From Sulfurospirillum sp. (lineage in GTDB: Bacteria > Campylobacterota > Campylobacteria > Campylobacterales > Sulfurospirillaceae), in NCBI GenBank assembly GCA_014859685.1, contig JACUTU010000005.1, positions 124,001 through 188,000 on the forward strand: a stretch of DNA of 64,000 nt. The letters are read 5' to 3'. Position 1 is the first letter of the stretch; every line of letters begins with the position of its first letter. Position numbers and translations under genes: made by a program. The notes beneath the pieces are model-generated. The model had not been told where the DNA came from. It saw nothing but the letters and a program-made list of their open reading frames with translations, and did not search any database. Below are positions 9,020-50,972 of this stretch, piece by piece.

Positions 9020-10195
9020 ATGTTTTCACCACTAGATGATTTTTTAAAAAAAGATTATGCCTCTGGAATATTGCTCATTGGTGCAACACTGCTTGCTCTT
9101 TTCTTGCAAAATAGCTTCTTTTCTCCACTATACAATGGCTTTTTACATACGCCGGTTGAGATAAAAATAGGTGCTTTACACCTTGCTAAACCTTTGTTGT
9201 TGTGGGTCAATGACGGGTTGATGGCGATATTTTTTTTCCTAGTGGGACTTGAGATTAAGCGAGAAGCACTTGAGGGTCATCTTTCTTCTAAAGAACAGAT
9301 AGCACTGCCAGCTATCGCCGCAACTGGCGGGGTTGTTGTTCCAGCACTTGTTTTTGTTGCGTTCAATTTTGGCAGTGATTTTGCGATGAAGGGCTGGGCT
9401 ATACCGACAGCTACAGACATTGCATTTGCACTTGGCGTACTTTCATTGTTGGGAAATCGTGTTCCTGTTTCTTTAAAACTTTTTTTACTTGCTTTAGCCA
9501 TCATTGATGATCTAGCAGCGATCATTATCATCGCTCTTTTTTATACGAGCGATTTATCGATGATTTCAATTTTGATAGCGTCTATCGCTCTTATTGCTCT
9601 TTTTATAATGAATAAAATGAATGTTATCAGAAAAGCAGCTTTTATACTTATAGGTATCGTGCTTTGGGTGAGTGTTCTAAAATCTGGCGTTCACGCGACT
9701 CTAGCCGGTGTAGCATTAGCTTTTATGATTCCTCTTAACAGTAAATACAAAAACGGCAAACCTTTTTCGATGAGCAAACAGATGGAACATGATCTGCATG
9801 GCTGGGTAAGTTTTCTCATATTGCCACTCTTTGCATTTGTAAATGCTGGTGTTGATCTTCGAGGTATTTCTATAGACGCTTTGTTTGCGCCTGTGCCTAT
9901 GGGTATATTGTTAGGTCTTTTTATCGGTAAACAACTTGGAGTTTTTGGATTTAGTTGGATTGCAATCAAAACAGGAATGACAAAACTACCACAAAATAGT
10001 AGTTGGATGCAACTCTATGGCGTGAGTGTTATCACGGGGATTGGTTTCACCATGAGTTTATTTGTAGATACTTTAGCATACAACGATACTGATCAATTTA
10101 TGTACACAGACAAACTAGGAATTCTTTTAGGATCACTATTTTCAGCGATTCTAGGCTATCTTATCTTGAGATTTGCAAAAAATGCCGAATTGTAG
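9020..10195 (+). CDS. nhaA: Na+/H+ antiporter NhaA
   Basis: Inner-membrane exchanger extruding sodium in return for protons. The 391-residue protein has about 11-12 membrane segments and the NhaA signatures: VNDGLMAIFFFLVGLEIKRE near residues 60-80, PTATDIAFALGVL, and the ion-binding aspartate pair in LALAIIDDLAAI. GGAGA sits before the ATG. It stands alone: 51 bases separate it from the TAXI gene, and a hairpin fragment of the dispersed repeat starts at its stop codon. Confidence 0.96.
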   Translation: MFSPLDDFLKKDYASGILLIGATLLALFLQNSFFSPLYNGFLHTPVEIKIGALHLAKPLLLWVNDGLMAIFFFLVGLEIKREALEGHLSSKEQIALPAIAATGGVVVPALVFVAFNFGSDFAMKGWAIPTATDIAFALGVLSLLGNRVPVSLKLFLLALAIIDDLAAIIIIALFYTSDLSMISILIASIALIALFIMNKMNVIRKAAFILIGIVLWVSVLKSGVHATLAGVALAFMIPLNSKYKNGKPFSMSKQMEHDLHGWVSFLILPLFAFVNAGVDLRGISIDALFAPVPMGILLGLFIGKQLGVFGFSWIAIKTGMTKLPQNSSWMQLYGVSVITGIGFTMSLFVDTLAYNDTDQFMYTDKLGILLGSLFSAILGYLILRFAKNAEL

Positions 10196-10255
10196 TTTTA
10201 GAGAGTTGTAGGGACAAATGTTCCTACAACAAAATGCAGTTTCCTTAGAAAAATC
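10195..10255. repeat. Truncated copy (D) of the dispersed intergenic repeat
   Basis: Matches only the second half of copies A and B: TTTTAGAGAGTTGTAGGGACA, then its partner arm. It fills most of the gap between the convergent nhaA and hisD genes. The first half and the end repeats are missing. Confidence 0.6.
10205..10230. terminator. Stem-loop between convergent nhaA and hisD
   Basis: Arms GTTGTAGGGACA and TGTTCCTACAAC pair over 12 positions with one G-T wobble and a 2-base gap. It is the central hairpin of repeat copy D. No strong T-run follows on either strand, so it may be a processing or weak two-way termination site. Confidence 0.5.
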
Positions 10256-19431: not shown

Positions 19432-19462
19432 TCCTTTTTTTCCTTTAAAAATTTGATAAATA

Positions 19463-19605
19463 GCTGACCTTACGCACTTTTGTAAAAAAGTTCGTAAATA
19501 CCTCTAATTTTCTCGAAAAGTACCTTTTTCGTAGCTTTAGAGGGTTGCAGGGACATTTGCCCCTACCACTAAAACGCACAAGTTCGTTTTAGTGCGTAAC
19601 ATCAA
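19463..19605. repeat. Dispersed structured intergenic repeat, copy A
   Basis: About 143 bp in the divergent gap between the MBL and nadE genes. End repeats TTACGCAC (19470-19477) and GTGCGTAA (19592-19599). Internal pairings: CCTCTAA with TTAGAGG; a partial AGGGACA hairpin; and CACTAAAACG (19567-19576) with CGTTTTAGTG (19585-19594), 10 of 10. Copies B (37826) and C (50834) align over the whole length; D (10195) is a fragment. It contains no ORF. The rest of the gap (19606-19719) is AT-rich and should hold the nadE promoter. Confidence 0.85.
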
Positions 19606-19719
19606 TAAATAATATATTTTTACACACTATAGCAAACTTAAATTAACGAACTAAATATAAAAGCGTTATTTAATAGTTCCTTCAGTATAATTGAAAGTCT
19701 TAAGAAAATACACATCTTT

Positions 19720-37827: not shown

Positions 37828-37958
37828 CTGACCTTACGCGCTTTTGTAAAAAAGTTCGTAAATACCTCTCATTTTCTCATAAAGTACCCTTTTTCGTAGC
37901 TTGAGGGGATTGTAGGGACATTTGTCCCTGCCACTAAAATGGACGCGTTAGTTTTTCT
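37826..37958. repeat. Dispersed structured intergenic repeat, copy B
   Basis: Nearly identical to copy A in the first 60 bases (CTGACCTTACGCGCTTTTG and onward). The internal stem reads CCTCTCA/TGAGGGG, and the GGGACA-TT-TGTCCC hairpin is perfect. Its right end, GCGTTAGTTTT, supplies the stop codon of cmoA (TAA at 37948-37950). Outer ends AAACTAAC and GTTAGTTT are inverted repeats. Confidence 0.85.
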
Positions 37959-38652
37959 TTGCGATAAAAGTTATAAAATTTCCATATTGAAAAATTGTAT
38001 TTATTTTTTGAAAGCCCGCATTTTCTAGCATTTTGATATTTTCATCTTGCGTGTAAGGCACAAGAACATTTTCCAACGCTTCTCTTTTTTGTGCGATTTC
38101 AAAATCACTATAGCCTTGTTTTCTTTTAAAATCATAGTACAGATCAATCATCTGTTTATCGAGTTTTTTATCTTCAAATATAATTTTTTCACTCAAAATA
38201 AAAGATCCGCCATCTTGAAGTGCATTGTAAATATTTGCAACAAACTCATTTCGGTGAAGAGGTCTTATAAATTGTAGCATATAATTTGCAATAATCACTT
38301 TGGAGCCGCTAAGATCTGCTGTTGTGATATCTTCACAAATTAATTTTATATCCGCGCCATAAGCATTGCGTTTTTTCTGTGCGTTTTCTAACATCGCTTT
38401 TGAATTATCTATGCCTACAAGAACGCGATTGTGGGATTTATTATACAGATGCAAGAGTGTATTTGCAGTTGAGCAACCAAGATCAATGATCTTCTCACCT
38501 TCTTGGCTATTACATAAAGCAAGATCGCATACAAGATTGAGTACATCTTTGTAAAAAGGGATGGATCGCTCAAGCATATCATCAAAAACAGAAGCGACAT
38601 CAGCATCGAAAGCAAATTGTTGTGTAATTGGTTTTGAAAAAATTGTGTCCAT
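37948..38652 (-). CDS. cmoA: Carboxy-S-adenosyl-L-methionine synthase
   Basis: Makes carboxy-SAM from SAM and prephenate for CmoB. From the ATG at 38652 the protein is 234 residues, the family length; the 40 residues readable upstream have no conservation I recognise and would run through the promoter. Seen: FDADVASVFDDMLERSIPFY, IDLGCSTANTLLHL, NYMLQFI and a family-like RKQGYSDFEI. The last codons (KN-stop) lie in the repeat end. A TATAAT lies upstream on the minus strand. Confidence 0.9.
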   Translation of the reverse strand: MDTIFSKPITQQFAFDADVASVFDDMLERSIPFYKDVLNLVCDLALCNSQEGEKIIDLGCSTANTLLHLYNKSHNRVLVGIDNSKAMLENAQKKRNAYGADIKLICEDITTADLSGSKVIIANYMLQFIRPLHRNEFVANIYNALQDGGSFILSEKIIFEDKKLDKQMIDLYYDFKRKQGYSDFEIAQKREALENVLVPYTQDENIKMLENAGFQKINTIFQYGNFITFIAKKN

Positions 38653-50833: not shown

Positions 50834-50972
50834 AACTGACCTTCTACGCTCTTGAAAAAAAGTTTGTAATGCTCAAAAAAAATACTTTTTTCGTAACTCT
50901 AAGAGGTTGTAGAAATATCTCTTTTTACTACAAGAACTGATGAATTCGTTTTAATGTGAACATCAGTTTTTC
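50834..50972. repeat. Dispersed structured intergenic repeat, copy C (diverged)
   Basis: Aligns with A and B from CTGACCTT through TTTTTTCGTAAC and the TTGTAG/CTACAA hairpin to the end. Ends AAACTGA and TCAGTTT are inverted repeats. More mutated than A and B, but the end repeats and central hairpin arms remain. The right end carries the stop codon of ruvX (TGA at 50963-50965). Confidence 0.75.

Follow-up and report, generated by a model that had tools for sequence, protein, structure and literature searches.

A dispersed intergenic repeat of Sulfurospirillum is very probably a MITE moved in trans by the transposase of NF049921 insertion sequences

Results

Copies of the element in the window

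The window analysed here is a stretch of 64,000 nucleotides from Sulfurospirillum sp., in which the best-preserved copy of the repeat, copy A, lies between a metallo-beta-lactamase-fold gene on one side and an NAD synthase gene on the other. A profile made from genomic copies of 140-161 bp was run on the window and, as a control, on the reversed window, where its best E value was 0.15. It recovered all four intergenic sites (E 5e-45 to 4e-5) that a preliminary description of this DNA had assigned to one element. That description had the sites right and the coordinates of the good copies shifted by 1-2 bases; the copy at 37828 is without its 3′ end and the site at 10195 is an internal fragment only. 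The features are as follows.

10177 to 10235, + strand: internal MITE fragment (profile E 4e-5)
19457 to 19463, no strand: left copy, TAAATAG, of the 7-bp target-site duplication (6/7 match to the right copy)
19464 to 19605, + strand: MITE copy A, full length, 142 bp (profile E 5e-45)
19464 to 19478, + strand: left terminal inverted repeat (TIR) CTGACCTTACGCACT, from the end-motif search
19470 to 19497, + strand: hairpin 1 (TTACGCACTTTTGTAAAAAAGTTCGTAA)
19501 to 19543, + strand: hairpin 2, nested (CCTC..CGAAAAGTACCTTTTTCG..GAGG)
19549 to 19564, + strand: hairpin 3 (AGGGACATTTGCCCCT)
19567 to 19594, + strand: hairpin 4 (CACTAAAACG..CGTTTTAGTG), with compensatory changes across genera
19591 to 19605, - strand: right TIR, reading TTGATGTTACGCACT on this strand, one change from CTGATGTTACGCACT
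19606 to 19612, no strand: right copy, TAAATAA, of the 7-bp target-site duplication, from flank comparison
37828 to 37964, + strand: MITE copy C, which keeps its left end but has lost the inverted repeat on the right (profile E 5e-35)
50836 to 50966, + strand: diverged MITE copy (profile E 2e-13)

TTTTTCA flanks the diverged copy on either side, and 2 additional bases stand at the left. Upstream of the internal fragment lies a gene for an NhaA Na+/H+ antiporter (9020-10195); its stop codon falls inside the fragment, so that the gene may owe its end to the MITE.

Ends, hairpins and folding

When copies are oriented alike, CTGACCTTACGCACT stands at the start of the element and its near-complement AGTGCGTAACATCAG at the end, giving an imperfect 15-bp inverted repeat (CTGACCTTACGCACT / CTGATGTTACGCACT) of the kind by which MITEs are recognised. 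Each of the features noted earlier is seen in the element, CTGACCTTACGC at its start, TTTTTCGTAG at its centre, a hairpin with GGGACA and an end complementary to the start, and no copy has any coding capacity, as had been said. Four hairpins lie between the ends. Folded as single-stranded DNA, copy A reaches -24.8 kcal/mol against -12.2 for its shuffles (z -5.0), and 6 of 21 consensus pairs, chiefly in hairpin 4, show compensatory changes across genera; a search of the window with the Rfam covariance models gave no match. Seen among few and related sequences, the compensatory changes leave a selected role of the structure possible rather than established.

Copy number and size classes

Compared with its own genome (2.1 Mb in 23 contigs), copy A has at least 42 matches, the full-length ones being 82-94% identical. 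The end motif CTGAYSTTACGCACT, allowing up to 2 mismatches, occurs at 133 sites in the genome, whereas the backwards control gives 5. Taking as a TIR pair two ends 35-170 bp apart with no more than 5 mismatches over both together, we found at least 53 TIR-bounded copies of 38-161 bp in the 342 kb of own sequence examined, namely the stretches around sites and the contig ends. The search for further genomic copies proposed in the preliminary description therefore has a clear outcome, and the element is short, multi-copy and non-coding, as MITEs are.

These copies fall into size classes of about 40, 65-77, 90, 108, 142 and 160 bp, each with target duplications of its own. By eye, the short forms are mostly the long form minus an internal block bounded by repeats of 3-6 bp, for example TTTAG or CGTAA. 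Two 90-bp copies at different sites (C5:14348 and C15:194553) are identical, from which it follows that the 90-bp form was itself amplified, while the junctions of the 40-bp copies differ among them, which suggests that these arose by repeated independent deletions. A series of sizes made by the loss of hairpins would be a natural record of MITE erosion. Shorter still is a 29-bp stretch in another genome (L123; G028:C9:53778-53806), in which a 3-bp spacer separates two 13-bp inverted repeats and which is flanked by TTATTAT and TTATGAT (6/7 match); it is probably a deletion remnant, too short for easy pairing of its own ends.

Insertion footprint and empty site

An exact 7-bp duplication flanks 21 of the 53 TIR pairs. 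When right flanks were re-dealt among the 53 pairs in 2000 shuffles, 0.72 were expected and no shuffle gave more than 6. Duplications of 2-5 and 8-12 bp show no excess and those of 6 bp number 2 exact against 0.15 expected; a few copies inside the palindrome TTACATGTAA have a 6-base duplication. The duplication is thus of one fixed length, as expected of a MITE. In many copies it has decayed, which we have counted against the explanation preferred below. The target is AT-rich and reads TTAWTAA, and 51 of the 53 copies are intergenic although a simple ORF rule assigns 88% of the sequence examined to open reading frames. Insertions often read TAA/CTGA, which recalls the TAACTGA repeats of Beggiatoaceae (PMC4679880); a term search of that paper turned up neither MITE nor TTACGC. 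The MITEs of Thiomargarita (PMC4853749) have flanking repeats of 10 bp or of TATAG type and do not match the family.

Two genomes of the same genus (G001 and G002) contain no match to the element anywhere. Both lack copy A at the syntenic position, where the aligned flanks lie 62 and 64 bp apart; the intergenic stretch is 216 bp in the own genome and would be 67 bp minus the element and one duplication. The comparison of empty sites advocated earlier thus yields agreeing lengths at this one site, copy A, and, since the intergenic sequence itself has diverged, it is synteny and length that carry the argument. At the site of copy C, G002 has a different 615-bp stretch that cannot serve as an empty site.

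Spread of the ends and of related elements

Of 299 Campylobacterales genomes, 57 have the end signature CTGAYSTTACGCA, and so do 26 of the 81 genera; a backwards control is near zero. Elements with the same core occur beyond the genus, both within the family (genus g4) and outside it, in other families. Plasmid records gave a single match, a related element on pSULKU01 of Sulfuricurvum kujiense, and phage records gave none. Thirteen non-coding elements of several sizes with the same ends were found in distant genomes, 5 of them with exact 7-bp duplications, including two of a class of about 267 bp. This second non-coding class shares the ends and occurs in several families of the order (L135, L142, L124, L138, L115).

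An insertion sequence with the same ends

The preliminary description held that the mover, if any, is not in the window, and this is borne out: it was found in relatives, with remnants in the own genome. Sought in genomes with only few end sites, the candidate is an insertion sequence (IS) of about 1.1-1.2 kb that has the ends of the MITE, makes a 7-bp duplication and encodes a DDE transposase of about 350 aa; this answers the proposal to look for a transposase sharing the ends. In G212 (C377:1362-2463) both ends lie 1102 bp apart and flank a gene for a 350-aa protein that matches the NCBIfam model NF049921 at 330 bits (curated cut-off 250) and also Pfam DDE_5 and DDE_Tnp_1. At L141/L152 the ends CTGACCTTACGCACT and CTGACCTTACGCACC flank a 350-aa transposase, the L141 copy being without a clear duplication (4/7); at L156, in a metagenome-assembled Campylobacterales genome, ends of the CTGACCTTACGCACC type stand on both sides and TTACTAA is duplicated 7/7. 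A scan for NF049921 across genomes yielded 80 relatives in many phyla, whose ends, found independently of the MITE, read CTGACCTTACGCACC, CTGATGTTACGCAG and CTCACCTTACGCA; many of these ISs have exact 7-bp duplications, again found without using the MITE. Ends and duplication length of the MITE are therefore identical to those of an autonomous element (L141/L152, L156 and others), and the interiors of MITE and IS are unrelated. No TIR pairs of MITE size were found in the short flanks searched near ISs of other phyla.

Contig C7 of the own genome has the 5′ end of the IS and the N-terminus of its gene, some 45 codons, immediately next to a MITE, at C7:330586-330771 within the stretch C7:330586-330888, and a C-terminus ...NQITYSELQKLKGA, its stop codon inside the TIR (frame read by eye), lies at the end of contig C18. 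As the own assembly yielded only fragments of an NF049921 transposase gene, one of them at a contig end, and no intact one, present activity of the MITE family is unproven. The PF01609 / DDE_Tnp_1 transposases of ten related genomes were considered as movers and rejected, their loci being without these ends. The own genome also has a partial DDE_Tnp_1 transposase gene (230 aa; C23:6796-7083, L110) without MITE ends.

Discussion

We propose that the repeat is a MITE moved in trans, through shared ends, by the DDE transposase of the roughly 1.1-kb NF049921 IS, a model in which we place high confidence. The NF049921 transposase would act in trans, binding the terminal inverted repeats (CTGAYSTTACGCACT) that MITE and IS have in common, the element would be cut out and inserted at AT-rich TTA-W-TAA sites, and repair of the insertion site would leave the 7-bp target-site duplication. 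Copies would then shrink by internal deletions between repeats of 3-6 bp near hairpins, giving the size classes, some of which, such as the 90-bp form, would have been amplified in their turn. Ends, duplication, target preference, dispersal, an empty site and the matching IS are observed; that this transposase moved the present copies, that it did so by cut-and-paste and that deletion occurs at hairpins is what we infer. Under the model, dispersed intergenic repeats with a patchy distribution through Campylobacterales are now tied to a definite transposase group. MITEs as a kind are known, and this family appears to be undescribed, the literature we searched having yielded no paper on it.

The preliminary description had left the choice between a MITE, a REP-like element and a structured RNA. 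A structured RNA, leader, terminator or REP-type element held at fixed regulatory positions and spread by duplication rather than transposition would account for folding that beats shuffles (z -5.0), for compensatory changes in 6 of 21 consensus pairs, mostly in hairpin 4, and for the intergenic position of 51 of 53 copies, yet it is contradicted by precise inverted ends with 7-bp target duplications, by the empty site of copy A in both same-genus genomes, which are without any element match, by the absence of an Rfam match in the window and by a copy A region that contains no terminator-like site. We consider it highly improbable, and on the strength of the ends, the duplications, the many dispersed copies and the empty site we read the family as a MITE, so that of the three earlier options this one stands and the other two are superfluous. 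REP/BIME units in the strict sense, palindromic units without target duplications that are linked to RAYT (Y1) transposases, are rejected on the 7-bp duplications. It is very unlikely, too, that a different transposase happening to recognise the same ends moved the MITE. The own assembly without an intact NF049921 gene and the unrelated interiors of MITE and IS would allow for such an enzyme, but DDE_Tnp_1 loci in ten related genomes are without these ends, the own genome has NF049921 IS remnants that carry them, and duplication length and end sequence both match NF049921 ISs in many phyla.

The origin of the size classes admits another reading, in which the 40-90 bp classes are separate MITE families of their own origin and not deletion products of the 142-160-bp element. 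A palindromic 40-bp type with left-type ends on both sides, which occurs three times, speaks for it; the correspondence of most short classes to the long element minus a block bounded by repeats of 3-6 bp speaks against it, and we think it unlikely, keeping to deletion from the long form. We would be similarly doubtful of a further idea about the hairpin core (CGTAGCTTTAGGGGGTTGTAGGGACATTTGTCCCTGCC and the following stem), kept across genera and families with compensatory changes, namely that the core is more than a passenger and that its structure, in RNA or DNA, may promote transposition or control neighbouring genes. On that view, arms would exchange the core as a module, one either domesticated or kept by selfish selection.

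Correia, RUP and other bacterial MITEs are, like the present family, short, structured, intergenic and mobilised in trans; they have different ends and target duplications (e.g. TA) and are not from Campylobacterota. The NF049921 ISs, filed as 'IS701_2', share with the MITE the terminal sequence CTGAYSTTACGCA and the 7-bp duplication, which makes them its likely mover, but at about 1.1-1.2 kb with a transposase gene they have the ends alone in common with it. MITEAba12 of Acinetobacter (PMC6382973) offers a parallel, being a non-coding element of 111-114 bp whose TIRs are identical to those of the resident ISAba12, whose duplication has the length of that of its IS and whose interior is unrelated to it, and for which trans-mobilisation of short elements by the IS transposase has been argued. 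It differs in its ISAba12-type transposase, its 9-bp duplication and its nearly uniform length, and in that an intact IS is co-resident and transposition has been observed.

NCBI places the mover under IS701 (NF049921, 'IS701_2'), a family whose definition (PMC2266710) asks for a 4-bp duplication and a YREK motif that is incomplete. In the mover group 23 of 25 members have the whole motif (Y-2-R-3-E-6-K) and the duplication is 7 bp (L156, L158, L166, L174, L176, L183, L187, L211, L300, L301, L305), so the mover fails as an IS701 in the sense of that paper on both counts, and the NCBI filing of the group needs revision. The mover does have the YREK motif and the duplication of 7-13 bp that mark IS4, with IS4 model scores below their cut-offs; by these two features it fits the IS4-type elements and would be expected to work like an IS4-type transposase. 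A sequence search of the PDB with the mover gave weak matches only, all to Tn5 transposase over the YREK region (E 0.55). The ISPepr1 subgroup of IS4 (PMC2266710) resembles it in a complete YREK, 7-8-bp duplications, 5′-CT ends and AT-rich targets, whereas ISPepr1 elements are 1.5-1.6 kb long with another terminal consensus. The transposases of IS701 sensu De Palmenaer 2008 and of ISAba11 are related to that of the mover, ISAba11 at about 22-23% identity.

Two other repeats were noticed. One is a 10-base palindrome, TTACATGTAA, with 13 occurrences in the window where 0.11 would be expected (7498, 12300, 17451, 21792, 29229, 37799, 37813, 40696, 41337, 51974, 54312, 58657 and 62769). Its count in the whole genome is 446, the reversed pattern giving 1; same-genus genomes have 657-733, genomes elsewhere in the family as many as about 1300, and those of other families of the order 0-6. 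It sits in genes and between genes, like the HIP1 palindrome of cyanobacteria, and is printed in no paper of the literature searched. The other, GCTTTAGTGCAAGGAATTT...AAAGGAGACAG (L099, L100, L102, L271, L272, L277, L281, L283), is a tandem or dispersed repeat found at many contig ends of the own genome (C9, C11, C13, C19, C20 and C21), where it probably breaks the assembly, and in places it lies just 5′ of a start codon.
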